Positions 2,695 to 17,576 of a stretch of DNA of 38,894 bases are shown here, in pieces. The notes below the pieces were generated by a model, which had not been told where the DNA came from, searched no databases, and was given only the letters and a program-made list of their open reading frames with translations. Made by a program: the position numbers and the translations under genes. Origin of the DNA: Chitinophaga pinensis (lineage in GTDB: Bacteria; Bacteroidota; Bacteroidia; NS11-12g; UBA955); assembly GCA_945888525.1 (NCBI GenBank), contig CAMDAF010000024.1, positions 1 through 38,894 on the forward strand. Reading direction: 5' to 3'. Each line of letters opens with the position of its first letter. Position 1 is the stretch's first letter.

Positions 2695-3801
2695 ATGAAA
2701 ATAAAATACTTAGATTTAAAAATGATTAACCATGCTTCAAAGCATGAATTAATGGAAGCGTTTGAAAGTGTTCTTGATTCTGGGTGGTATATTCTTGGTA
2801 ATAAATTAGAACATTTTGAAAATCAATACGCTGCATATTCACAAACAAATTATTGTATAGGTGTAGCAAATGGTTTAGATGCATTGATTTTGTCCTTAAA
2901 AGCTTTGGACATAAAGACTGGAGATGAAGTAATAGTTCCTTCTAATACCTATATCGCCTCTTGGTTGGCGGTGTCTTATGTTGGCGCAAGGCCTATACCT
3001 GTAGAGCCAAATTGGGCAACATGTAATATTGACCCTTTACTTATTGAAAGTAAAATAACAGGAAGAACTAAAGCAATTATGCCGGTTAATTTGTATGGTC
3101 AAGCTGCTCAATTAAATCTTATTACTGAAATTGCTAAAAAACATGATTTGTTTGTAGTTGAAGATAATGCACAAGCCCAAGGGGCAGTGTGTAAAGGTAA
3201 AATAACTGGTAGTTGGGGCCATGTCAATGCGAGTAGTTTTTATCCAGGTAAAAATTTGGGTGCTCTAGGCGATGCCGGTGCCATTACAACCAATGACGAA
3301 AACTTGAATAATAAAGTTAGAATCATAAGAAATTACGGCTCTCAGAGAAAATATTTCAACGAGATAAAAGGCGTGAATTCTAGATTGGATGAATTACAAG
3401 CTGCTTTGCTTTCTGTTAAATTAAATGTATTGGATACACAAAACAGTCAAAGAATTGCACTAGCAGAAATCTACAATCAACATTTACAAAATGTAGGTGA
3501 CTTAACCTTGCCTACATTGGCAGACTCATGCACATCAGTTTACCATATTTATCAAGTACGAACTTCTAGACGGGATAAATTACAAAATTTTTTGACAGAC
3601 CATGGTATTGGAACCATAATACATTACCCTGTGCCCCCGCACTTGCAAGAGGCCTATACAGAACTTGCATATAAAAGTGGTGATTTTCCAATAGCAGAGA
3701 AAATTGCTGAACAAACATTAAGTTTACCTTTATATCCAGGAATGTTAGCAGAAGACGTTTACACTGTAATTGAAACGATAAAAAAATTCTTCAATGGCTA
3801 A
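2695..3801 (+). CDS. fdtB: dTDP-3-amino-3,6-dideoxyhexose transaminase (FdtB/QdtB-like, DegT/DnrJ/EryC1 family)
   Basis: This 368-residue PLP-dependent sugar aminotransferase is of normal length for the DegT/DnrJ/EryC1 family. It converts the 3-keto sugar made by the upstream isomerase into the 3-amino sugar, with glutamate as probable amino donor. Visible features are GVANGLDALILSLKAL (residues 56-71, cofactor-phosphate side), VVEDNAQAQGA (154-164, the Asp that contacts the pyridine nitrogen), and SFYPGKNLGALGDAGA (181-196), where K186 is the expected Schiff-base lysine. The VVEDNAQAQGA form is typical of the FdtB/QdtB branch. The frame is intact although the acetyltransferase gene just upstream is not. 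The end overlaps the next start by 8 bp. Confidence 0.88.
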   Translation: MKIKYLDLKMINHASKHELMEAFESVLDSGWYILGNKLEHFENQYAAYSQTNYCIGVANGLDALILSLKALDIKTGDEVIVPSNTYIASWLAVSYVGARPIPVEPNWATCNIDPLLIESKITGRTKAIMPVNLYGQAAQLNLITEIAKKHDLFVVEDNAQAQGAVCKGKITGSWGHVNASSFYPGKNLGALGDAGAITTNDENLNNKVRIIRNYGSQRKYFNEIKGVNSRLDELQAALLSVKLNVLDTQNSQRIALAEIYNQHLQNVGDLTLPTLADSCTSVYHIYQVRTSRRDKLQNFLTDHGIGTIIHYPVPPHLQEAYTELAYKSGDFPIAEKIAEQTLSLPLYPGMLAEDVYTVIETIKKFFNG

Positions 3802-5182: not shown

Positions 5183-6397
5183 ATGAAGGATAGGATTTAC
5201 TATTTTGTGGATGATATTGATACCTCATTTGTATTGAATGATATTAGAAAGTTAGCATCGCATACCAAAGAACTGCTTATTTTATCGACAGAAGCAATAG
5301 AAAGAGAGCATTTACTACCAAGTAATGTTAGTATAATTGAAGAATTTATAGACTGGAAAAGATTCAAACCTTTGAATATTTTAGTGTCAAATTTTTTTAC
5401 AATTATTAGTATTTATATCAATGAGTGCTTGTTAAGCAGAAAGTTTATTAAGCCTAAGAGTACCATAGCACTTATATGTTCGAATATCCATAAAGCCAAA
5501 GAAGCTTTAAGAGCAATTGAAGACTTTTCCATTGTCAAGACTAAAAACAACCTTTTTCTTGCCTTCTGGTTTTACGATTGCATTTATTTGGCATTTCTCA
5601 AAAAATGGGGAAATGCAGAAGATGCAGTTTGCAGGGCACATGGAGGAGATTTATTCGAAGAAAGAAGTTCATTAAACGGTAAAGTATTGCTTAGAAATTT
5701 CCAATTAAAATATCTCAACCATGTTTTTTCCGTTTCTGAAACTGGCAGTATATACTTAAAACAGAAGTATCCAAACTATGCTCAAAAAATTAGTGTATCC
5801 TATTTGGGTTCTAAATTTCATATTGATACAAACCCATTTAGTAAAAATGAATTTGTATTAGTAAGTTGTGCTAAAATTAGAGATGTAAAAAGGATACATT
5901 TAATAGCAGAAGCTTTATTAGATATTGGCATTGTAATGAGTTGGTATCATTTAGGTGACGAAAATCTGGATGCCAAGAACGACCCTACTATTGACTTATA
6001 TAAACAAGCTGTTAGTAAACTAAGAAGCAAACAAAATATAAGATATATAAAAGCAGGTAATTTGAGTAATGAAGCACTCTTGAAATTTTACAAAGAACAG
6101 CCCATAAATTTATTTATCAGTGTTTCTGCGGCAGAAGGTATTCCTGTAAGTATGATGGAAGCAATTAGTTATGGCATTCCAATATTATCAACGGATGTAG
6201 GTGGATGTAAAGAAATTGTGAATCAAGAAACAGGCATGTTAATATTTCAAGATCCCAATCCGGAACTTATTAATAAAAAAATTCTTGAATTTAGAAATTC
6301 AGGTATGAATACTATTGAATTTCGAAAAAAAGTTAGAGAATATTGGGAACAACATTTTAATGAGGATATTAATTATGGTGATTTTATAAAAAAATAA
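5183..6397 (+). CDS. Glycosyltransferase, GT4 family
   Basis: This 404-residue retaining GT-B glycosyltransferase shows its C-terminal donor-binding domain clearly. FVLVSCAKIRDVKR lies near residues 228-241 (the usual G/S-R-x-x-x-x-K loop). SAAEGIPVSMMEAISYGIPI follows with a proper E-x7-E pair, and then a Gly-rich DVGGCKEIV. It probably adds one residue to the lipid-linked repeat unit. The gene starts immediately after the decayed gene and ends one base before the ATG of the NeuB-like synthase, so it is co-transcribed with the nonulosonate module. The donor sugar cannot be read from the sequence. Confidence 0.85.
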   Translation: MKDRIYYFVDDIDTSFVLNDIRKLASHTKELLILSTEAIEREHLLPSNVSIIEEFIDWKRFKPLNILVSNFFTIISIYINECLLSRKFIKPKSTIALICSNIHKAKEALRAIEDFSIVKTKNNLFLAFWFYDCIYLAFLKKWGNAEDAVCRAHGGDLFEERSSLNGKVLLRNFQLKYLNHVFSVSETGSIYLKQKYPNYAQKISVSYLGSKFHIDTNPFSKNEFVLVSCAKIRDVKRIHLIAEALLDIGIVMSWYHLGDENLDAKNDPTIDLYKQAVSKLRSKQNIRYIKAGNLSNEALLKFYKEQPINLFISVSAAEGIPVSMMEAISYGIPILSTDVGGCKEIVNQETGMLIFQDPNPELINKKILEFRNSGMNTIEFRKKVREYWEQHFNEDINYGDFIKK

Positions 6398-7408
6398 ATG
6401 AATAATCAAACAGAAATAATCGCTGAAATAGCGCAAGCCCATGATGGCAGTTTAGGCATTGCGCACTCGTATATCGATGCGCTCTATGGAATTGGAGTTG
6501 ATACCATAAAGTTTCAAATGCATATTGCCGAATATGAAAGCAGTGCTCATGAACAATTTAGAGTTAACTTTAGCTATGAGGACAAAACACGTTTTGATTA
6601 TTGGGATCGAATGGGTTTCACTTTTGAACAATGGCAAGGATTAAAGCAACATTGCGAGGATAAAGGATTTAATTTTTTGGCTTCCCCATTTTCGTTAAAA
6701 GCAGTAGAATGGATGGAGCAACTCGGTGTTGAACGGTATAAGATAGCTAGCGGTGAAACAGCAAATTTTTTAATGCTGGATCGTATTTGCAAAACAGGCC
6801 AATCTATTCTATTATCTAGTGGAATGAGCAGTTATTCTGAAATTCAAGAAACCATTGATTTTATTCAATCCCACAAGGGTAAATTTGAAGGCTTGTTTCA
6901 ATGCACAAGTGCTTATCCAACCCCACCGGAAAACTATGGTTTAAACGTTTTGAAAGAATTAAAAAATAAAACCAATGTTAAGGTAGGTTTGAGTGATCAC
7001 TCGGGAGAAATTTATGCACCATTGGCGGCAGTTGCCCTAGGAGCTGAAATGCTTGAAATGCACGTTGTGTTTGATAAGAAAATGTTTGGACCAGATGCTG
7101 CTTCATCATTAACAATTAATGACTTTATACAATTGTGCCAAGGCGTCAGAAAAATTGAAACTTGCTTAAACAACCCAATTGACAAAGATAATATTGATGC
7201 ATTTGAAGATATGAAAATCATGTTTGGTAAGTCGATAACATTATCAAAGGATTTAGAAAAAGGACATATAATTCAATTGGAAGATTTAGAAACTACCAAG
7301 CCGGGAGATAAGGGTATTTCAGCAAAAGTCTACCAATCAATTATTGGAAAAGTGCTTAATAAGAATTTATCAAAGCACACATTTATACAAAACAATGATT
7401 TAGAATGA
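6398..7408 (+). CDS. neuB: Nonulosonic acid synthase (NeuB/LegI/PseI family)
   Basis: The NeuB family condenses phosphoenolpyruvate with a six-carbon N-acetyl sugar (ManNAc or a 2,4-diacetamido sugar) to give a nine-carbon nonulosonic acid. This protein has 336 residues. A TIM barrel comes first, with AEIAQAHDGSLG near the start, IKFQMHIAEYES, FLASPFS, YKIASGE, LLSSGMSS and VGLSDHSGEIYAPLAAVALGA. A C-terminal SAF (antifreeze-like) domain occupies about 275-336. The form AEIAQAHDGSLG with a following FSYEDKTRFDYWDRM segment differs from classic sialic acid synthases (AEIGxNHNG), so the acceptor may not be plain ManNAc. The SAF loop reads TKPGDKGI where many homologues have RPGxGI. It starts right after the previous stop and overlaps neuC by 4 bp. 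Confidence 0.87.
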   Translation: MNNQTEIIAEIAQAHDGSLGIAHSYIDALYGIGVDTIKFQMHIAEYESSAHEQFRVNFSYEDKTRFDYWDRMGFTFEQWQGLKQHCEDKGFNFLASPFSLKAVEWMEQLGVERYKIASGETANFLMLDRICKTGQSILLSSGMSSYSEIQETIDFIQSHKGKFEGLFQCTSAYPTPPENYGLNVLKELKNKTNVKVGLSDHSGEIYAPLAAVALGAEMLEMHVVFDKKMFGPDAASSLTINDFIQLCQGVRKIETCLNNPIDKDNIDAFEDMKIMFGKSITLSKDLEKGHIIQLEDLETTKPGDKGISAKVYQSIIGKVLNKNLSKHTFIQNNDLE

Positions 7409-8562
7409 AAAAAAGGAAAATTTGTGTCATCATAACCGCTCGACCAAGTTACAGCAGGGTTAGGACTGCTTTATTGGCCATTAATGAGCAGCCAGAATTG
7501 GAATTACAATTGGTGGTTGCTGCCTCAGCTTTGTTAGACCGCTATGGTTCAACAATTAATTATATTGAAGCCGATGGTTTTAAAATTGCCGGAAAGGTAT
7601 TCATGGTTATTGAGGGATCTACCCTCACAAGTTCTGCCAAGACAACGGGCATAGGAATTATGGATTTGGCAACAACTTTCGATAATCTAAAGCCTGATAT
7701 GGTTTGTACAATTGGGGATAGATATGAAACAATGGCCACTGCAATTGCGGCAAGCTATATGAATATTCCTTTGGTGCACATACAAGGTGGTGAAGTAACG
7801 GGTAATATTGATGAGAAAGTTAGACATGCCATTACAAAATTATCTGACCTGCATTTAGTCTCTAATGATGATGCAAAGCAGAGGCTAATTAAAATGGGTG
7901 AGTATGAGGATAAAATTCACATTACTGGTTGTCCAAGTATAGATATCGCCAAACAGGTTTTAGACCATTCGAAATTGGATTTTGATCCTTGTCAAAAATA
8001 TGGTGGAGTGGGAAAATATATCGATACAAGTAAGGATTATCTAGTTGTGATGCAGCATCCGGTTACAACAGAATTTGAAATGGCAAAATCACAAACAGAG
8101 AGTTTAATTAAAGTAGTACATGAATTAAATATGCCTGTATTTTGGTTTTGGCCGAATCCAGATGCAGGTAGTGACGGAACAAGCAATGCATTGAGAACAC
8201 ATAGAGAAGAGAATCCTGACAACCAAATTCGTTTCTTTAAAAATTTAGAAGGCGCCGATTTTTTAAAATTGTTGTACCATTCAAAATGCTTAATCGGCAA
8301 CAGCAGTGTCGGTATTCGTGAATGTTCGTATTTGGGAATACCAGTTGTAAACATTGGCAGCAGACAAAATAGGCGTTTGAGGGGCAAGAATGTAATAGAT
8401 ACAGATTACAATCAAGAAAATTTAAGAGAAGCAATTCTCAAACAAGTTAAGCATGGGCATTACCCAATAGAAAATTTATATGGAGATGGCCATGCAGGAA
8501 TTGCAATTGCTAATGTGTTAGTTAATGCAGGAATAGAAATCAAAAAAGTAATTAGTTATTAA
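7405..8562 (+). CDS. neuC: UDP-sugar 2-epimerase, hydrolysing (NeuC/LegG-like)
   Basis: NeuC/LegG enzymes release UDP and invert C2 of UDP-GlcNAc or of UDP-2,4-diacetamido-trideoxyglucose, giving the substrate for the NeuB-like synthase. This protein is 385 residues, the family's normal length. Motifs are ITARPSYSR at 10-18, TIGDRYETMA at 102-111, PLVHIQGGEVTG at 122-133 and the conserved RHAITKLSDLH at 140-150. Further on are a WFWPNPDAG loop and the C-terminal GNSSVGIRE. ATGA overlap with neuB and a 3-bp gap to the amidotransferase make a coupled operon. The absence of LegB and LegC homologues in the window leans to a GlcNAc-derived substrate, but those enzymes could be encoded elsewhere. 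Confidence 0.88.
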   Translation: MKKRKICVIITARPSYSRVRTALLAINEQPELELQLVVAASALLDRYGSTINYIEADGFKIAGKVFMVIEGSTLTSSAKTTGIGIMDLATTFDNLKPDMVCTIGDRYETMATAIAASYMNIPLVHIQGGEVTGNIDEKVRHAITKLSDLHLVSNDDAKQRLIKMGEYEDKIHITGCPSIDIAKQVLDHSKLDFDPCQKYGGVGKYIDTSKDYLVVMQHPVTTEFEMAKSQTESLIKVVHELNMPVFWFWPNPDAGSDGTSNALRTHREENPDNQIRFFKNLEGADFLKLLYHSKCLIGNSSVGIRECSYLGIPVVNIGSRQNRRLRGKNVIDTDYNQENLREAILKQVKHGHYPIENLYGDGHAGIAIANVLVNAGIEIKKVISY

Positions 8563-8565
8563 AAT

Positions 8566-9762
8566 ATGTCAAACACAATGCACGGGCTTCCAGAAGAAGT
8601 TATTTTTTGTAAAAAATGTTGTATATCCAACCAAAGACCAAGTACAAAAAGAGAATTTTCAAAAAAATCAAGTAAAGATACCGAAACGGTTGGCTTTGGT
8701 GATGATGGAATTTGTGAAACCTGTAAATGGTTTGAGTTTAAAAAAACCATCGATTGGGAGCAAAGAGAAAAACAATTGGAAGAATTATGCAATAGATTCA
8801 GAAGAAATGATGGGTCTTATGATGTTATTGTTCCTTCTAGTGGAGGCAAAGATAGTTTTTATGTTGCGCATCAATTGAAATACAAATATGGAATGAATCC
8901 ATTGACCGTTACGTGGGCACCACATCAATACACAGATATTGGATGGAAGAACTTCGAGAGTATGATTGATGCGGGTTTTGACAATGTTTTGGTTACGCCA
9001 AATGGCAAAATTCACAGGGTATTAACCCGTTTAGCTTTCGAAAATCTGGTCAATCCTTTTCAACCATTTATCATTGGACAAAAAAATGTTGCTCCGAGAG
9101 TCGCATTGCAATATGGGGTTCAATTAATTATGTATGGAGAAAATCAAGCCGAAGCACATAATAAATTAGAAGAAAATTTTAGCCCCTTAATGGATATTTC
9201 TCATTTCTGTAAAAAGGAAGGTGAAGAGTTGTATTTCGGAGGTGTTCATATCAATGATTTAATACAACATGGAATTGAAGATAAAGATTTGTATCTTTAT
9301 AAACCATTGCAAGAAGAAACTATAAAAAATGCAGGTATTGAAGTGCACTTTCATAGTTTTTACAAAAACTGGTCAGCACAAGAAAATTATTACTACGCAA
9401 TGGAACATTCTGGTTTTAAATCAAATCCAGACGGAAGAAGCGAAGGCACTTACACCAAATTTGCAAGTTTGGACGACAAAATTGACGGCCAGCATTATTT
9501 CACTATGTACATTAAATTCGGTCAAGGAAGGGCTATGAATGATGTAAATCGTGATATTCGTGATGGCTTTATTAGCCGTGAGGAAGGCATCGAATTGATC
9601 AATAAATATGATGGTGAATTCCCAATCAAATATTTCCAAGAAGTTTTAGATTATATGGAAATAAGTGAAGAACGTTATTGGGAAGTATTAGACAATGCCC
9701 GCTCACCACATTTGTGGGAGAAGCTTAATGGTGAATGGCAATTAAAACACAAAACAAAGTAA
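8566..9762 (+). CDS. N-acetyl sugar amidotransferase (WbpG/PseA-like)
   Basis: This family converts an acetamido group on an activated or free sugar to an acetamidino group, using ATP and ammonia from a HisH/HisF-like pair. The 398-residue protein has a zinc-ribbon-like N-terminus (C15-x2-C18 and C50-x2-C53) and a PP-loop, SSGGKDS at 91-97, of the N-type ATP pyrophosphatase superfamily. These are followed by the family segments YGENQAEAHN and YYYAMEHSGF. Known members include WbpG in Pseudomonas O-antigen synthesis and PseA in Campylobacter pseudaminic acid modification. Here it lies between neuC and the hisF/hisH-like pair, so a nonulosonate precursor or product is the most likely target. 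Which amide is modified, and at what stage, cannot be told. Confidence 0.88.
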   Translation: MSNTMHGLPEEVIFCKKCCISNQRPSTKREFSKKSSKDTETVGFGDDGICETCKWFEFKKTIDWEQREKQLEELCNRFRRNDGSYDVIVPSSGGKDSFYVAHQLKYKYGMNPLTVTWAPHQYTDIGWKNFESMIDAGFDNVLVTPNGKIHRVLTRLAFENLVNPFQPFIIGQKNVAPRVALQYGVQLIMYGENQAEAHNKLEENFSPLMDISHFCKKEGEELYFGGVHINDLIQHGIEDKDLYLYKPLQEETIKNAGIEVHFHSFYKNWSAQENYYYAMEHSGFKSNPDGRSEGTYTKFASLDDKIDGQHYFTMYIKFGQGRAMNDVNRDIRDGFISREEGIELINKYDGEFPIKYFQEVLDYMEISEERYWEVLDNARSPHLWEKLNGEWQLKHKTK

Positions 9763-9835
9763 TCTTTATCGATAGCTTTTGTTTGATGGCTTCTTTTGCT
9801 TCAAAATTTAAAATTGGTAATTTCATAAGAGTAAA

Positions 9836-10585
9836 ATGAAAAGAGTCATCGCGCGATTAGATATCAAAGGAAATAGATTGGTTAAGGGAATTCATCTTGA
9901 AGGTTGGCGATTTTTACCTGAGCACCCTAATGAATATTGTTATAATTACTATTTACAAGGAGTAGACGAAATCATATATGTTGATGCAGTTGCTAGTTTA
10001 TACAATAGAGATTCGCTTAAAGAGATTATAAAAAAGACGACAGACAATGTTTTTGTGCCAATTACAGTTGGTGGTGGAATTAGAACTCTAGACGATGCTT
10101 ATGATATCTTAAGAAGTGGTGCAGATAAAGTTGCAATATGCACCCAAGCGGTAAAGCATCCTGAAATTATTTCTGAAATTGCAGGCAAGTATGGAAACCA
10201 ATGTATGGTGCTGTCTATTCAGGCTAAGAAAAATCAATCAGGTACTTATTCAGTTTGGTATGATGTTGCGAGAGAAAAAACTGAAATTGATGTTGTTGAA
10301 TGGGCTCAAAGAGGCGAGGAATTAGGTGCTGGTGAAATACTCTTAACATCGATAGACCATGAAGGCCTAGAAAGGGGCATGGACAAAGAATTGATAAAAT
10401 TAGTTTCTAGTGCTGTAAGTATTCCGGTTATAGCTAGTGGAGGGTTAGGAAATTCAAAGCATTTTGTAGAAGCAATTGAAAGTGGTGCAGATGCTGTAGC
10501 CATAGCTAAGGCATTGCATTATGAAAGAGTAAGCATCAAAGAAATTAAGGATGAGGCTAGGAAAAATAATATTAAAGTACGCTGA
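9836..10585 (+). CDS. HisF-like (beta/alpha)8 subunit of the amidotransferase system
   Basis: This is a 249-residue TIM barrel related to the cyclase subunit of imidazole glycerol phosphate synthase. Recognisable elements are ARLDIKGNRLVKGIHLEG near the start, VPITVGGGIRT at 74-84, GEILLTSIDHEG at 166-177 and IPVIASGGLGNS at 196-207. D9 matches the first catalytic Asp of true HisF (D11 in Thermotoga). The second catalytic Asp (D130) is replaced by Gln at residue 129 within MVLSIQAKK. That argues against histidine-pathway chemistry and for a role in channelling ammonia to the PP-loop amidotransferase. The gene follows a 73-bp gap without a clear promoter and overlaps the hisH-like gene as TGATG. 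Confidence 0.87.
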   Translation: MKRVIARLDIKGNRLVKGIHLEGWRFLPEHPNEYCYNYYLQGVDEIIYVDAVASLYNRDSLKEIIKKTTDNVFVPITVGGGIRTLDDAYDILRSGADKVAICTQAVKHPEIISEIAGKYGNQCMVLSIQAKKNQSGTYSVWYDVAREKTEIDVVEWAQRGEELGAGEILLTSIDHEGLERGMDKELIKLVSSAVSIPVIASGGLGNSKHFVEAIESGADAVAIAKALHYERVSIKEIKDEARKNNIKVR

Positions 10586-11214
10586 TGGTGAAAAATGTTT
10601 CTATAATTGATTACGGTATGAGCAATTTACTCAGCATCCAAAGAGCTTTTGAGCATGTTGGTGCTCTTGTAAATATCGTAACTACTGAGAAAGAAATCTT
10701 AAATGCTGATTATTTAGTGTTACCAGGAGTTGGCGCATTCCCAGATGGAATGAACGAATTAAATTCAAGACATTTAGTTGCAGCCATTAAAGAGTTTTCT
10801 CAAAAAGAAAGACCTCTTTTGGGTGTTTGTCTTGGAATGCAAATGTTGCTTTCAAGGGGATTTGAGCACAAAGAAACAGCGGGACTTGGTATAATCGAAG
10901 GTGATGTTTTGCCATTGCCAAAAGATATGCCTAATTTTAAAATTCCAAATATAAATTGGCATGAAATAACTGAACCAAACCAAGGTAGATGGAATAACAG
11001 TATTTTGCAAAACACAAAGAATGATACTTTTTTTTATTTTGTACACTCATATTTCGCAAAGCCAAAAGATTCATATGATGTACTTGCTGAAACCAGCTTT
11101 GGTGTTTTGAAATTTGCAGCAGCTGTTAAAAGAAATAATATTTGTGGAACCCAGTTTCATCCCGAGAAAAGTGGCGAACAAGGTTTGAAAATTTTGGCTG
11201 ACTTCTTAAAATAA
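10585..11214 (+). CDS. HisH-like glutamine amidotransferase subunit
   Basis: This is a 209-residue class I glutaminase that hydrolyses glutamine and passes ammonia into the HisF-like barrel. The triad is intact: C82 in LLGVCLGMQML, and H192 and E194 in TQFHPEKSG. Oxyanion-strand residues around LPGVGAFPDGM (46-56) are conserved. Its place between the hisF-like and CMP-sugar synthetase genes, and the Gln substitution in its partner, indicate that it supplies nitrogen for sugar amidination and not for histidine. The start overlaps the preceding stop (TGATG), consistent with a 1:1 complex. The stop is 6 bp from the next ATG. Confidence 0.9.
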   Translation: MVKNVSIIDYGMSNLLSIQRAFEHVGALVNIVTTEKEILNADYLVLPGVGAFPDGMNELNSRHLVAAIKEFSQKERPLLGVCLGMQMLLSRGFEHKETAGLGIIEGDVLPLPKDMPNFKIPNINWHEITEPNQGRWNNSILQNTKNDTFFYFVHSYFAKPKDSYDVLAETSFGVLKFAAAVKRNNICGTQFHPEKSGEQGLKILADFLK

Positions 11215-11220
11215 TTTTAA

Positions 11221-11916
11221 ATGAAAATATTAACAATAATACCAGCTCGAAGCGGTTCAAAAGGGGTGCCAGGGAAAAATATAAAATTGTTAGGTGGTAA
11301 ACCTTTAATTGATTACACTATTCAATTTGCTAAAAACTCTGGGTTAGATAAAATTATAGTTAGCACTGATACAGAAGAAATAGCGAACATATCAAGAAAA
11401 TCTGGCGCAGAAGTTCCTTTCCTAAGACCCGAAAACTTAGCAGATGATAAAACCCCGACTATCGATGTTTTAATGCATTTAATTGAAACTTTAAACTTTA
11501 CTAAAGCAGATTTTGATGCTGTATGTTTATTACAGGCAACTGTACCATTCAGATCTGATACTTTAATGCAGAATTGTATAGAAAGATATATGAAATACAA
11601 TTTAGATTCATTGGTAACTGTAAGGCAAGTCCCTTCTCATTTTAACCCACATTGGACTTTTGAAGCTACTCAAGATCAATTGTTAAAAATATCAACAGGA
11701 GAGAATAAGCTTATAACAAGAAGACAAGATCTACCTCAAGCATACTATAGAGATGGTTCAGTGTATCTAATTTCAATGGATGTATTATTAAATAACAAAT
11801 CTTTATATGGCGAACGACTTGGCTTTTTTGAGAATATAGAAGAGGATTATGTTAATATAGATACTATGAAAGATTGGGATAAAGCAGAAGAATTAATACT
11901 AAAAAATGCCAACTAG
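11221..11916 (+). CDS. neuA: CMP-nonulosonic acid cytidylyltransferase (NeuA/LegF/PseF-like)
   Basis: NeuA-family enzymes activate a nonulosonic acid with CTP to the CMP-sugar used by transferases. The protein has 231 residues, the usual size of the single-domain form. The nucleotide-binding signature is IIPARSGSKGVPGKNIKLL at 6-24 with R10, K14 and K19. It is followed by IIVSTDTEEIA (45-55), EVPFLRPENLADD and VCLLQATVPFRS. The C-terminus has DYVNIDTMKDWDKAE, typical of the family. It closes the six-gene nonulosonate module and overlaps the next ORF by 11 bp. Sequence does not discriminate between Neu, Leg and Pse substrates. Confidence 0.88.
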   Translation: MKILTIIPARSGSKGVPGKNIKLLGGKPLIDYTIQFAKNSGLDKIIVSTDTEEIANISRKSGAEVPFLRPENLADDKTPTIDVLMHLIETLNFTKADFDAVCLLQATVPFRSDTLMQNCIERYMKYNLDSLVTVRQVPSHFNPHWTFEATQDQLLKISTGENKLITRRQDLPQAYYRDGSVYLISMDVLLNNKSLYGERLGFFENIEEDYVNIDTMKDWDKAEELILKNAN

Positions 11917-12907
11917 TTATATAAAAAAAATAGATTTTTTGAGGGCATTATCTATTTTAATCGTGTTGCTTTCGCATTGGATTCATGATTGTAATGTCAA
12001 GGAATTATCATTCTTGGATAATAAAGGCGTATATGGTGTAAATTTGTTTTTCGTTATATCAGGATTTTTAATAACAAGGAATTTAATTTTTGCATTTAAA
12101 ATAAATTCATTCAAGAAATCACTTATTGATTTTTTTAAAAAAAGACTATTAAGGCTACTTCCAGCCTACTATTTATTGCTGTTCACACTATTTATCTTAC
12201 AATATGTTTTAGGTTTTTGGGTTGTAAATAATTATACAGATTATTTATGGTTTATATTTTATATTCCAAATTTTTATATTTATTTCTACGGTTGGAATTA
12301 TCCAAGTTTGAATCAAGCATGGTCATTAGCAGTTGAAGAACAATTTTATTTGATTTGGCCATTTATTGTTTATTTCTTTAAGAAGCACTTAAAAATTGTA
12401 TTTGTAATTTTGATTTTATTTGGTTTTATTTTTACATACTATTTTGATTATCAAGCAGGATTATTTCCAATATCCAATTTTGTATACTTAGCCGGGGGTG
12501 GATTACTGTCTTTATTTGAAAATAAACTTAGCTTAAAGAAGTCAATTGTTATTTTATGTTGCTTAATTCCATTATTAATATTTTTAGATTTAGGATTAAT
12601 TATTAATAGTATAGTCTGGACATTATTTTATGTGACACTTATTAATATTTTTTGTTTTGACTTTTTGGGTATTTATGATTTGATTTTTAGTAATTCTAAA
12701 ATATTGTATATAGGAAAAATTAGTTATGGCATCTACCTTTATCATCGTTTTTTGCCACATTTTATTCATTCTATTCTACAAAAATTTAACATAATAATTG
12801 ATAATCGTATTGTATTTATTTCTTTATTTATTATAGTATTTTTCCTAGCACATTTATCATATAAATACTTTGAATCATATTTTCTTAGAATAAAAAATAG
12901 AATATAA
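11906..12907 (+). CDS. Membrane O-acyltransferase, acyltransferase 3 (OafA/YrhL) family
   Basis: This integral inner-membrane protein of 333 residues has about ten hydrophobic segments. Family signatures are R13 and H24 in the spacing R-x10-H (FLRALSILIVLLSHW), GVNLFFVISGFLI near 44-57 and WSLAVEEQFYLIWP near 138-151. Such enzymes O-acetylate surface sugars, including sialic acids and O-antigen residues. The 11-bp overlap with the CMP-nonulosonate synthetase gene suggests that the nonulosonate or a neighbouring sugar is the acceptor. There is no SGNH domain, so this is the short, membrane-only form. An inverted repeat lies just downstream. Confidence 0.87.
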   Translation: MPTSYIKKIDFLRALSILIVLLSHWIHDCNVKELSFLDNKGVYGVNLFFVISGFLITRNLIFAFKINSFKKSLIDFFKKRLLRLLPAYYLLLFTLFILQYVLGFWVVNNYTDYLWFIFYIPNFYIYFYGWNYPSLNQAWSLAVEEQFYLIWPFIVYFFKKHLKIVFVILILFGFIFTYYFDYQAGLFPISNFVYLAGGGLLSLFENKLSLKKSIVILCCLIPLLIFLDLGLIINSIVWTLFYVTLINIFCFDFLGIYDLIFSNSKILYIGKISYGIYLYHRFLPHFIHSILQKFNIIIDNRIVFISLFIIVFFLAHLSYKYFESYFLRIKNRI

Positions 12908-12972: not shown

Positions 12973-13015
12973 CAAAAAATATTTGCATACGAATTGCATA
13001 CCTAAAACTAAAACT

Positions 13016-14572
13016 ATGCTGGTAGCCAAAAACATTTTAACCCATGACTATTATCTCAAAGTTAGGCAGAAAGGTGTAAATATCTTTTTGTATAATGAAA
13101 TTGATTTTATTCCACCTACTAAGGAAGAAGATAATGAAACTTTCTTTAATTGTTCCTCGCATAGAGTTGAGAGCACATGGTACACATGGGAAGTCAATGA
13201 TAAATTAATTCAGGATTTTAAAATTAGATTTCCTAATTTTTTTAACATCGATGGTTATGATTTAACATTAGCCATTCAAAAAGCAATGTATTGGTCTAAT
13301 ATTAAAACAGGCTTTTTGTGGTATAGTATAAAAACTTATTATCCCCTTACAAAGGTTTATTATGCTGAAGAAATGCATCCCTCAAGTAAGTTAGGTGCAA
13401 TAAGTAGGTATATAAGTGCATTTAGATTGCGCTCTAATTTCAAACTTGGACATACGCAATCTGTTGATTCAAATAAAATAGCTATTCACTTAAGAAGTAA
13501 TTTTCAATTAGGCTTTTATTTAGAATTAATCAATAAGACTAAAAATGATGACAATTTCAAACTTTTTGTTGATCCCGATGTAGATGAAATTTATTTAAAA
13601 GAATTGGGACTAAATACATTGAATGTGGTAAAAACTTCAGGGATAGATGCTCAAATACCTCTCATAAATCCTTTAAAAATGAGTAAGGAAGATAGTTTTG
13701 CTTTAAATATTATTTTGATGTATTGGCACGAATTTGGCGAACACATTGAAACGGCTGAAAGTATGATTCATGATGGTCTGAAAGCAATTTTAATTAATGA
13801 AGGAGAAAATGGTATTTATGGTGCTATAGTTTCTGAGGTATTTAAGAAAAATGGCGTAAAAGTATATAACACCATGAATGGTGTAAAATCTGGCGAAGCC
13901 CAAGATTCGTATGTTAATTTTGATTATTGGTTTGTTTGGGATCAACAAATGAAACAAATGCTTATCGATGCAAATAAATTACCGGAACAGAAATTAATAG
14001 TAAGTGGTCATTTAATTGAAGATTTGATAAGTAATTATCAATACCATAATTCATTAAATTTAGATTTAAAATTTTTAGAAGATAAAAAAGTAATTTCGAT
14101 ATATACGGCTAAAGGCAAACGTTATGCAAAGTTAGCATCAATGAAGTTTCTTTTTGAATTATTAGAAGAAGATGAATCATTGGCTCTAATTATAAGACCG
14201 CATCCTGCCGAAAAGCCTGAGGATTTTATTTTACCGGATAAAAATTTGGATAGAATTCATTTCGCATCCTATAATTCGATAAATGCAAATAGTAGTCTTC
14301 ATGATTTACTTTTAATGTCCGATTTGGCAATTGTTTTTGGGTCAACTGTTGCATTGGATGCTAAGTGGATGGGTGTGCCATGTATTAGTTTTGAAATTAG
14401 AGAAAAGTCACTTATTTATTGCGCAGACAATCATAAAATCAAACATGTTAGCACAATAGAAGATTTTAAAACACTTGTCAAATCATCATTAACCAAAAAA
14501 GTAAAAAACATTGAAGAAAATAAAGCTTCTGTCTCTGATTTTATATTAGAAGAAATACTTAGGAATAATTAA
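13016..14572 (+). CDS. Putative GT-B glycosyltransferase with sialyltransferase-like motifs
   Basis: This large 518-residue cytoplasmic protein has no family name that I can assign with confidence. The C-terminal half looks like the donor domain of a GT-B fold. LIIRPHPAEKPED carries HP at residues 396-397, and LLLMSDLAIVFGSTVALDAKW carries GST at 442-444. An NEG acidic-glycine motif sits at 261-263. Bacterial sialyltransferases of families GT38, GT52 and GT80 share a D/E-D/E-G, HP and S-S/T trio, so transfer of the nonulosonate made by the preceding module is a reasonable inference. CDP-glycerol glycerophosphotransferase-like enzymes also have an HP motif and are the alternative. I chose the ATG at 13016 over an in-frame TTG at 12983. 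The segment HLRSNFQLG echoes an earlier RLRSNFKLG. Confidence 0.6.
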   Translation: MLVAKNILTHDYYLKVRQKGVNIFLYNEIDFIPPTKEEDNETFFNCSSHRVESTWYTWEVNDKLIQDFKIRFPNFFNIDGYDLTLAIQKAMYWSNIKTGFLWYSIKTYYPLTKVYYAEEMHPSSKLGAISRYISAFRLRSNFKLGHTQSVDSNKIAIHLRSNFQLGFYLELINKTKNDDNFKLFVDPDVDEIYLKELGLNTLNVVKTSGIDAQIPLINPLKMSKEDSFALNIILMYWHEFGEHIETAESMIHDGLKAILINEGENGIYGAIVSEVFKKNGVKVYNTMNGVKSGEAQDSYVNFDYWFVWDQQMKQMLIDANKLPEQKLIVSGHLIEDLISNYQYHNSLNLDLKFLEDKKVISIYTAKGKRYAKLASMKFLFELLEEDESLALIIRPHPAEKPEDFILPDKNLDRIHFASYNSINANSSLHDLLLMSDLAIVFGSTVALDAKWMGVPCISFEIREKSLIYCADNHKIKHVSTIEDFKTLVKSSLTKKVKNIEENKASVSDFILEEILRNN

Positions 14573-15236: not shown

Positions 15237-16260
15237 AATAATTTTATCTTTCGACTATGAAATTTATTTTGATGGCAGTAACCATTTAGAAGCACTATTG
15301 GAAAACACCAATAAAATTCTTGCAAGTGCGCGACAAAACAAATCTAAATTGGTGTTTTTTATTGATATTTTTTATCTAATTAAATTGGAAGAAAATGGAT
15401 TATTCCTTCACTGTAATAAATTAAAAGATCAAATTAACAATATGATAAAAGATGGCCATGAACTTCAATACCATCTCCACCCGCATTGGATTAATGCTCA
15501 ATACAACAAAGGAAATGACCATTGGAAATATGATCAGTTAGAATATTCACTATCTGATATTATTAAAATTTATGGAAAATCCTTTGCCTTCGATAAGTTT
15601 AAATTGGGTGTAGATAGAATGAAAGAGTGGTTTAAATATGAGCCTTTAGCATACAGGGCAGGAGGTTTATCAATAGATCAAAATCAGGAAGATTTAATAG
15701 AGTTACTAATACAAAATAAATTTGAATTTGATTCAAGTGTAATGCCCGGATTATATTTACAAGGCAAATTTTTAAACATTGACCATAGATCAGCGCCTAA
15801 AAAAGAAATTTGGAATATAAGTGATAGTTTTTTAAATGAATCTAAAAATCCAAATTCAATTTTAAAGGAAGTACCCATCATGACTATAAATAGCAATGAA
15901 ATTCCCTTTGCAAATAGAATAATAACAAGCATTAAATATAGAACTGTATCTGCATTAAGCGCTAAGGACGATAGTGTAATTGAAAATATCGGAAAACCAT
16001 TTGATTTGGAAATCAATCAAGCAATACATCCAAATAGTATAACTTTCGATAAATCTAAATCGGCGGATACATTGCTTTTAAAGTATTTCACTAAGTATTT
16101 TTTTAAGAAGAATGCAAATTTGATGTGCATTCTTTCCCATCCAAAGAGCTTTTTAAACCAATCTTTTGAGGTATTTTGCGTCTATTTGAAATGGATAGAC
16201 AAAAACAAAAATAAATACGTTTTATCAGGATTTTCAGATATCGTAAGCAGTGAAAAATAG
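15229..16260 (+). CDS. NodB-like polysaccharide deacetylase family protein
   Basis: The start is taken at the GTG at 15229, which gives MNKIILSFDYEIYFDG and 343 residues. An upstream in-frame TTG at 15214 is less likely. The barrel-edge motifs of CE4-type deacetylases are present in variant form. SFDYE (D9, E11) stands for the first motif, FFIDI gives D46, GHELQYHLHPHW (H77, H82, H84, H86) gives the metal histidines, and YRAGGLSID follows. Proteins of this type in glycan loci remove N-acetyl groups from lipid-linked sugars, or have unknown roles. The gene overlaps both neighbours and so belongs to the operon. The spacing of the histidines departs from textbook H-x3-H, so activity is not assured. 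Confidence 0.65.
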   Translation: MNKIILSFDYEIYFDGSNHLEALLENTNKILASARQNKSKLVFFIDIFYLIKLEENGLFLHCNKLKDQINNMIKDGHELQYHLHPHWINAQYNKGNDHWKYDQLEYSLSDIIKIYGKSFAFDKFKLGVDRMKEWFKYEPLAYRAGGLSIDQNQEDLIELLIQNKFEFDSSVMPGLYLQGKFLNIDHRSAPKKEIWNISDSFLNESKNPNSILKEVPIMTINSNEIPFANRIITSIKYRTVSALSAKDDSVIENIGKPFDLEINQAIHPNSITFDKSKSADTLLLKYFTKYFFKKNANLMCILSHPKSFLNQSFEVFCVYLKWIDKNKNKYVLSGFSDIVSSEK

Positions 16261-17576
16261 TTTTCTTTTTGTTGCATATCAGTTTCCACCTATGGGTGGA
16301 CCTGGCGTGCAAAGGAGTTATAATTTTGTTAAAGAACTTAGCAATCAAGGATATTCTCCTATTGTATTAACAATTAAAGAATCAGAAATTGATGCGGCTA
16401 ATTATCAAAAAGATTGGTCTTTAATAGACCAAATTCCAAAGGGTATTAAAATTGTTCGAATAGACTCAGGTCAAAATTTTACTTTGGTAAAGCGTTTAAT
16501 GAAATGGAGAGCGTACCGCTTATTTTGGTATTTCTTTTATCCTTTTTTTTGGGAAAAAATGGCGAATTGGCCATTTGTAGCTTACAAGCACGCTAAAAAG
16601 TTAATTATTGAAAACAATCTGGATTTAGTCTACACCAGCTCTGGTCCATTCTCTTCGCTTATCTTAGGGTATTTGCTTAAAAAAAGATTAAAGGTAAAAT
16701 GGGTTGCAGATTTAAGAGATCCATACACGGATGCTTATGCATGGGCATTTCCTTCAAAAATACATTGGAGGGTCTCGAGACTATGTGAAAAGTGGATATT
16801 GTCTAAGGCCGATCAGCTCATAGTAAATTCACCTGAGGTAAAGAAATTGTTTATTAAAAGAAATATTTTACCAGCGTCTAAAATTAATGTCATTACCAAT
16901 GGATATTAGTAAGCCTTTAAAGATTGCTTATTCTGGAAGCTTGGATGCAAAATACCCAAGTGAATCAAAAGGATTTTTTATACAGGTCAAAAATTTATTT
17001 TGGACATACAAACACGACGCGGTTGATCCTTCAACGCGAAGTGCTTATTTTTTGATTAAAGCCATAGGCTTATTAAAACGCGATTTTAATATCACACCAG
17101 ATGAAATACAAATTGAACTGTGGGGGAATATTCATTCTTTGAATAAGGAACATATAATAGAAGCAGGCGTAAGCGAATTTTTTTACATTGATTCGTATTT
17201 GCCTAAGGATGAATCTTTAAAAAGATTAAGTCAGGCAGATGTGCTTTTTTTACCCCTCGAAAAATCAAATATAAAAGGTCAAGGCACTTTATTTATTCCA
17301 GGTAAATTATTCGAATATTTGAGTACAAGAAAGCCAATTTTGGCGCTTTGTGAACCTTCAGATTGCAGAGACATTATAGAAAATTCTGGCTTGGGTATTT
17401 GCATTGAACCAGACAATCCTGAATTAATAGCAAATGTTTTGTTTCCATTAATTAAAAACAAAATGCTGTTATTAGGACTAATCGCGAATGAAGAATTTAT
17501 CGAAACTTTTGCTTTTAAAAATAAAACCTTAGAGCTTATATCTGTTTTAAATAAAGCAAGCGGTAACTTAAATTGA
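16250..17576 (+). pseudogene. GT4 glycosyltransferase split by a frameshift
   Basis: Two adjacent pieces form one GT4 protein of about 440 residues. The first (GTG at 16250 to TAG at 16907-16909) has the acceptor-domain start FVAYQFPPMGGPGVQRSYNF and ends at INVITNGY, the usual hinge before the donor domain. The second reads on in a different frame with KIAYSGSLDAKYP, ELWGNI and GKLFEYLSTRKPILAL, ending at 17574-17576. The shift lies at about 16900-16909. The stretch between NGY and the donor-domain strand is shorter than usual, so a small deletion may accompany it. It may be inactive, or the two halves may be translated separately and associate. No slippery site typical of programmed shifts is evident. 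Confidence 0.72.

Follow-up and report, generated by a model that had tools for sequence, protein, structure and literature searches.

Acetamidino derivatives of legionaminic (Leg) and pseudaminic (Pse) acid are already known, and fusaminic acid is described as a 5-acetimidoylamino-3,5,9-trideoxy acid with a hydroxyl group at C7 (passages of PMC9912281, PMC13014188 and PMC12940168). Here we describe a six-gene cassette that is predicted to combine nonulosonic acid biosynthesis with sugar amidination. It lies on a stretch of 38,894 nucleotides (the window), which is the entire contig CAMDAF010000024.1 (C24) of a Chitinophaga pinensis genome of 2.42 Mb in 63 contigs, 98% complete (G000). We lean towards the reading that the cassette makes a cytidine monophosphate (CMP)-activated nonulosonic acid, the sialic-acid-type backbone of which comes from UDP-N-acetylglucosamine (UDP-GlcNAc) and bears an acetamidino group at C5: 5-acetamidino-neuraminic acid. 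A sequence-only reading of the window had proposed a GlcNAc-derived acetamidino nonulosonate, and had placed all known sugars of this kind on Leg or Pse backbones; the latter statement fails, as passages of PMC9912281 and PMC13014188 give fusaminic acid of Fusobacterium nucleatum 25586 a C7 hydroxyl.

Two of the closest described systems make an amidinated nonulosonate. In Legionella pneumophila, the genes for CMP-Leg5Am7Ac (neuD, neuC, neuB, neuA and a ptmG homologue) resemble the cassette in NeuC, NeuB, NeuA and an N-acetyl sugar amidotransferase (NASAT), the structure of which has been solved (LpNASAT, PDB code 8WEX; PMC10607449, in part). LpNASAT is the closest solved structure to the window amidotransferase (445 bits), and the likeness rests on this comparison rather than on NeuB or NeuC; L. 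pneumophila also has neuD and a UDP-diNAcBac dehydratase (passages of PMC3766260), whereas the genome with the cassette has neither NeuD nor LegC above cut-off. Fusaminic acid has a 5-acetimidoyl and no 7-amino group, as predicted for the cassette product, but it is 9-deoxy and of another configuration, and the likeness is one of product description and not of genes.

The cassette and its predicted amidination enzymes

The window contains an intact run of six genes at exactly 6398-11916, all on the forward strand, in the order NeuB, NeuC, WbuX/NASAT, HisF-like, HisH-like and NeuA, with successive intergenic spacings of -4, 3, 73, -1 and 6 bases; the tight run reported by the sequence-only reading is thus borne out. 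NeuC, NeuB and NeuA stand together in one cluster, as the N-acetylneuraminic acid (Neu5Ac) pathway requires. By the curated NCBIfam cut-offs, NeuC, WbuX and HisH are recognised by their family models, and NeuB, HisF and NeuA score under theirs (Table 1).

Enzymes of the NASAT/WbuX family are marked by a PP-loop SGGxDS and a tetracysteine CxxC...CxxC (passages of PMC10607449). The window protein has SGGKDS at 92, CKKC at 15 and CETC at 50, and scores above the TIGR03573 cut-off (339 vs 203 bits): by family, it is an N-acetyl sugar amidotransferase. In a WbuX tree of 32 rows, the nine loci with the gene order of the window (window-type loci, see below) form one clade (support 100/100), sister to the clade with LpNASAT, and five amidotransferases of another class are distant from it.

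HisH retains Cys82, His192 and Glu194, which we take to be its catalytic residues, and the cassette HisF retains the first of the two Asp positions that we likewise take to be catalytic. The second position is Gln in 9/9 window-type rows; among the remaining rows, the 10 that accompany close amidotransferases have Glu there and the other 11 have Asp. This residue is a possible marker of substrate class. A role of the cassette protein as the histidine enzyme was rejected on account of the Gln. We also consider it unlikely to act in histidine synthesis because no other HisF-like protein above 26 bits was found in the 98% complete genome, which has no match at the HisF cut-off; with the cassette HisF as the sole such protein, and under that cut-off, the organism may be a histidine auxotroph.

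Recurrence and gene order in related genomes

The sets searched were 59 related genomes, 395 genomes from the phylum and, for the amidotransferase, 70 family genomes. Matches to the window NeuB in the 59 related genomes are bimodal: a clade with 53-82% identity is present in 16 genomes (these include the window's own, at 100%, and G013, in two pieces, and exclude G040 and G038, with fragments of 61 and 33 residues), and other matches longer than 70 residues have 24-34% identity. WbuX, HisF and HisH lie between NeuC and NeuA in nine of the 16 (G000, G003, G005, G008, G009, G010, G012, G013 and G025); an AsnB-like gene separates NeuB and NeuC in G025, and NeuB is cut by contig ends in G013. The run is split in a tenth genome, G016, where one contig ends after NeuC and another starts with WbuX-HisF-HisH. 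Because the order repeats in eight further genomes among the loci compared, the cassette is more than a chance arrangement. NeuB, NeuC and NeuA occur without the insertion in G015, G017, G030, G035, G042 and G048; four other genes precede NeuA in G048, and WbuX-HisF is on a separate contig in G017. Three of the fetched loci (L094, L095 and L100) repeat contigs of others (L077, L078 and L091).

LegC exceeds its cut-off in 14 of the 59 genomes, 11 of which have it within ~2.5 kb of a ~30%-identical NeuB; NeuD is above cut-off in 14. Only two of the 16 clade genomes have LegC (G009 and G035), each time beside a second, Leg-type NeuB (L109 and L110), and 11 have neither LegC nor NeuD above cut-off. 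The same is true of seven of the ten clade genomes with the amidotransferase, among which G009 is the only one with LegC. Neither LegC nor LegB has its best hit in any of the nine window-type loci. The recurrence of the cassette without LegB/LegC supports the GlcNAc-derived product that had been proposed.

The amidotransferase was found in 14 of the 395 phylum genomes and 14 of the 70 family genomes, 27 in all with the window's own counted once. NeuB is within the fetched stretch in 22 of the 27; L134 and L135 have no NeuB in theirs, and the stretches of G011, G016 and G017 are too short to judge its proximity. L154, L156 and L158, which are short and lie at or close to contig ends, were left out of this count. 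Since NeuB or LegC had served to fetch the nine window-type loci and L114/L115 in the first place, proximity was counted from the amidotransferase searches instead.

Ten loci with this class of amidotransferase (L136-L145) have a NeuB that is Leg-type by its best phmmer hit only, and nine of them have both a LegC-like gene and a LegB/PglF-like dehydratase candidate, which is weak in L137 (53 bits); L139, with neither, was counted as the miss. These Bacteroidota operons (L136-L138 and L140-L145) cluster NeuB, NeuC, NeuA, HisF, HisH and WbuX as the cassette does, but add LegC and the dehydratase candidate, have a NeuB of another clade, and carry Glu or Asp where the cassette HisF has Gln. Three other amidotransferase loci (L114, L115 and L133) have a NeuB like that of Neisseria meningitidis. 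In L112-L116, such a NeuB has NeuA, NeuC, a DegT aminotransferase and an alcohol dehydrogenase of the Fe type as neighbours, and two of these loci (L114 and L115) have a close amidotransferase; L112-L116 appear to represent another nonulosonate cluster. In three Bacteroidota genomes, two of them Flavobacterium, NeuA is directly followed by an asparagine-synthetase-like amidotransferase (L097:12860-14563, L098:12888 and L099:12860).

The trio of NeuB, NeuC and NeuA might instead make an unmodified nonulosonate while the amidotransferase set modifies a different sugar in the same polysaccharide, an explanation to which we give little credence. It would fit the six of 16 clade genomes in which the trio lacks the insertion, and also the phylum sample, where the clade NeuB occurs in 16 genomes and the amidotransferase (E <= 1e-60) in 14 with the window's own genome as the sole overlap, so that 0/15 further clade genomes are amidotransferase-positive. 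Other-class HisH-HisF(-WbuX) sets also lie near nonulosonate loci (L083, L086, L087, L092, L112 and L113), and other-class HisH-HisF sets are found elsewhere in the stretches of G009, G013, G015 and G030. However, the set sits between NeuC and NeuA in 9/9 window-type loci, its amidotransferase subfamily is mostly NeuB-linked while the other-class amidotransferases form a distant clade, and the second catalytic residue of HisF varies with class.

The backbone of the predicted product

Searches of the 98% complete genome for LegB/LegC and PseB/PseC found none above the curated cut-offs, in agreement with the reading from UDP-GlcNAc. LegC scored no higher than 195-197 bits against a cut-off of 420, and PseC no higher than 216 against 424. 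Among all 12 PF16363 and 8 PF02719 matches, the top score for LegB was 140 bits (cut-off 475); for PseB it was 163 (cut-off 408), given by a PglF-like dehydratase. NeuD also stayed below cut-off genome-wide (best 71 of 161 bits), GNAT-type acetyltransferases (LegH/PseH-like) not being part of the search. A complete Leg or Pse precursor set was not found in the genome; possibly the dehydratase alone is present.

The genome has two intact, strong DegT aminotransferases. The copy in the window, next to FdtA, was rejected as LegC (172 of 420 bits, with FdtA adjacent), and the two genes are read as a dTDP-3-amino-sugar pair. The earlier statement that dehydratase and aminotransferase genes are absent from the window therefore holds for Leg/Pse-type genes and not for DegT aminotransferases in general. 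The second copy, on contig C7 (197 of 420 LegC bits), lies beside what read as genes for UDP-glucose dehydrogenase and UDP-xylose synthase. A third, broken by several stops, lies at C37:12048-13078 (in L043) beside intact FdtA-like and acetyltransferase genes.

The motif AEIAQAHDG occupies NeuB residues 9-17. In a NeuB tree of 38 rows (excluding the duplicates L094, L095 and L100 and the NeuB fragments of L091/L092), 19/19 rows of the window clade group together (100/100), apart from the N. meningitidis-like group and from 11 Leg-context rows, which include Escherichia coli K1 NeuB; the LegI branch is represented by LegC-linked NeuBs. PseI adjoins the window clade (94/88) at a join flagged by the program as long branches meeting. 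The NeuB is outside the Leg-context and PseI branches, a placement that favours the proposal of the sequence-only reading. The only other NeuB-family match in the genome, of 36 bits on contig C2, reads by its sequence as a 3-deoxy-D-arabino-heptulosonate 7-phosphate synthase.

In N. meningitidis numbering, Q28, A29, H57, D76, R79, W83, R85 and K314 are invariant in 34/34 clade members. The window NeuB matches that of N. meningitidis at H57, D76, R85 and G133 and differs at R79, W83 and K314 (K1 NeuB differs from N. meningitidis too), and no reference enzyme in the comparison has the same pocket. Position 314 is Arg in 11/11 Leg-context rows, 5/5 N. meningitidis-like rows, N. meningitidis, K1 and PseI. 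The residue facing C2 is Gly, not Phe, in 34/34 window-clade NeuBs; Gly here marks Neu/Leg enzymes, as opposed to Phe in Pse enzymes (passages of PMC7371886). A Pse-type pathway was rejected on this residue and on the sub-threshold PseB/PseC scores. We also rejected the idea that Lys replaces Arg314 to suit an amidine substrate, since this Lys is present in 34/34 clade members with and without an amidotransferase; N. meningitidis NeuB with the R314K mutation is reported to be active (passages of PMC6795526). Residues of the C4-C6 loop were rejected as proof of substrate, as the Leg pattern is also found in K1 NeuB.

The closest solved relative of the window NeuC is human GNE (4zht, 230 bits, vs 180 for 5zlr). 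In a NeuC tree of 39 rows made with a quick method, a clade of 21 rows joins human GNE (SH-aLRT 90), where both GNE and K1 are long branches; NeuC thus groups moderately well with the human UDP-GlcNAc 2-epimerase. The motif GGEVTGNID is found in 21/21 clade rows and QHPVT in 20/21, and GNE has GGEVSGTID and QHPVT. Seven Leg-context NeuCs fall on the opposite side with K1 and 5zlr, and three (L108, L110 and L111) on the side of the window. The Neu5Ac pathway (N. meningitidis SiaC, E. coli K1 NeuB/NeuC, human GNE) has the same NeuC-NeuB-NeuA logic as the cassette, to the NeuC of which GNE is the partner in the tree; the window NeuB shares H57 and R85 with the N. meningitidis enzyme, but differs by its separate clade and by K314, R79 and W83, and the cassette adds the amidination genes.

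Two other backbones have to be weighed. In a Leg5Am7Ac-type pathway, UDP-diNAcBac would be made elsewhere, with the PglF-like dehydratase, the DegT aminotransferase of contig C7 and an unrecognised acetyltransferase feeding NeuC. The presence of the PglF-like gene and of an intact aminotransferase, the position of LpNASAT as closest solved structure, and a Legionella dehydratase that is also outside its locus (passages of PMC3766260) would agree with this. We consider it unlikely, given the low NeuD-type score (71 of 161 bits), a contig C7 aminotransferase that has under half the LegC cut-off, with sugar dehydrogenase and decarboxylase genes next to it, and the placement of the window proteins outside the Leg-context groups for 11/11 NeuB and 7/10 NeuC rows.

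A fusaminic-type 9-deoxy 5-acetamidino acid from UDP-6-deoxy-HexNAc seems to us about equally improbable. It would need a 4,6-dehydratase and a reductase and no aminotransferase; fusaminic acid does exist in F. nucleatum 25586 (per passages of the papers cited above), a PglF-like dehydratase is in the genome, and no reference has the residues found near C4-C6 in this NeuB. However, the nine window-type loci have no recurrent dehydratase or reductase next to NeuB, as far as the queries used there reach (Fusobacterium genes were not among them).

Several observations count against a UDP-GlcNAc-derived backbone. NeuD is present in 4/16 clade genomes (G009, G016, G025 and G042), and the G025 locus (L084) has NeuD and a non-LegC DegT aminotransferase 6-8 kb upstream of NeuB. 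Six of the 16 clade genomes (G008, G003, G016, G030, G005 and G009) are only 68-86% complete (G012, G025, G035, G042 and G048 are 99-100% complete), and the PglF-like dehydratase is present in the window's own genome, unlinked, at the end of contig C38. The Lys at the catalytic Arg314 site and the unique R79/W83 (34/34) leave ManNAc a putative substrate of NeuB. Finally, E. coli K1 NeuB and NeuC, which we take to be true sialic acid enzymes, group with the Leg-context rows, and clade position is therefore no proof of substrate. The backbone preference of NeuB, and hence the sugar backbone of the product, is what we infer: the proposal of a GlcNAc-derived acetamidino nonulosonate is supported by the lack of Leg/Pse genes above cut-off, the NeuB and NeuC placement and the recurrence, and its backbone is qualified by K314, R79 and W83.

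For 5-acetamidino-neuraminic acid, the route would run as follows. NeuC would convert UDP-GlcNAc to N-acetylmannosamine (ManNAc), NeuB would condense ManNAc with phosphoenolpyruvate to a Neu5Ac-type acid, and NeuA with CTP would give its CMP-activated form. HisH would release ammonia from glutamine, HisF would relay it, and WbuX with ATP would swap the acetamido oxygen for NH, probably at the CMP-sugar stage on the model of PtmG, which is reported to act on the CMP-sugar (passages of PMC3766260). Neighbouring glycosyltransferases, with the candidate U1 (below), would then insert the product into a surface polysaccharide. The calculated mass of the free acid would be 308.122, which is 0.984 Da below that of Neu5Ac (309.106), as against 292.13 for a fusaminic-type acid and 333.15 for Leg5Am7Ac. 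The substrates, order of steps and product of this route, which we infer from the established enzymology of these families, stand beside what was observed directly: gene identities and order, no Leg/Pse genes above cut-off, clades and motifs.

With modest confidence, we think that the product is probably outside the lists found: either zwitterionic 5-acetamidino-neuraminic acid or another backbone chosen by the NeuB clade with R79, W83 and K314, a clade spread across the Bacteroidota, the loci of which would in one family have gained an amidination unit between neuC and neuA. No paper on an amidine of neuraminic acid was found by name in the open-access literature. The acetamido group is a feature commonly read by sialidases and sialic-acid lectins. 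If the reading is correct, the C5 amidine would render the sialic acid zwitterionic rather than acidic and deprive it of this group, amidination would be a plug-in unit not bound to Leg/Pse backbones, and the cassette would provide a gene signature for locating such glycans.

Flanking genes

Table 1 Features of the window discussed in the text, with bit scores and, where given, the curated NCBIfam cut-offs in brackets.
Feature	Position	Strand	Evidence
NeuB-like synthase, AEIAQAHDG motif, separate clade	6398..7408	+	PF03102 216 bits, SAF domain; TIGR03569 273 (400); PseI 212 (340); tree; invariant residues in 34/34 clade members
NeuC-like hydrolysing UDP-sugar 2-epimerase	7405..8562	+	TIGR03568 387 bits (236); GNE 4zht 230, 5zlr 180; tree
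N-acetyl sugar amidotransferase (WbuX/NASAT), PP-loop SGGKDS, two CxxC pairs	8566..9762	+	TIGR03573 339 bits (203); LpNASAT 8wex 445; tree
HisF/WbuZ-like subunit, Gln at second catalytic Asp position	9836..10585	+	TIGR00735 255 bits (295); WbuZ 254 (300); alignment
HisH-like glutaminase with Cys82, His192, Glu194	10585..11214	+	TIGR01855 207 bits (105); motifs
NeuA-like CMP-nonulosonate cytidylyltransferase	11221..11916	+	PF02348 101 bits; best NCBIfam model PseF TIGR03584 172 (206), under cut-off; 6ifd 103
DegT (FdtB-like) aminotransferase	2695-3801		beside FdtA (1534-1935); family scans
GT4 glycosyltransferase abutting NeuB	5183..6397	+	relatives upstream of NeuB in related loci
Acyl_transf_3 acyltransferase, overlaps NeuA end by 11 bases	11906..12907	+	PF01757 96 bits
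U1, GT-B-fold protein	13010..14572	+	no Pfam hit; AlphaFold2 model

The AlphaFold2 model of U1, built from 13 sequences, has a mean pLDDT of 88.1. Its residues 153-520 match GT-B-type folds, the best being a UDP-GlcNAc 2-epimerase (8ahe; Z 19.9, 3.9 Å RMSD across 332 residues); the comparison with WaaA gave Z 14.6 and 6.2 Å RMSD across 312 residues. In 11 related loci U1 comes after NeuA or after a dehydrogenase, and L077, L080 and L092 have two copies. By position, it is a candidate nonulosonate transferase, a shared fold being no proof of function.

A gene resembling D-2-hydroxyacid dehydrogenases lies near NeuA in 12/20 clade loci (e.g. L077:14994-15920), and the window has the acyltransferase in that place. 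Further downstream, a GT4 glycosyltransferase is found in two overlapping open reading frames (16250-16909 and 16887-17576); the split may be real because L080 has a pair of similar lengths (218 and 222 amino acids) in the same place, a comparison that does not extend to the second halves.

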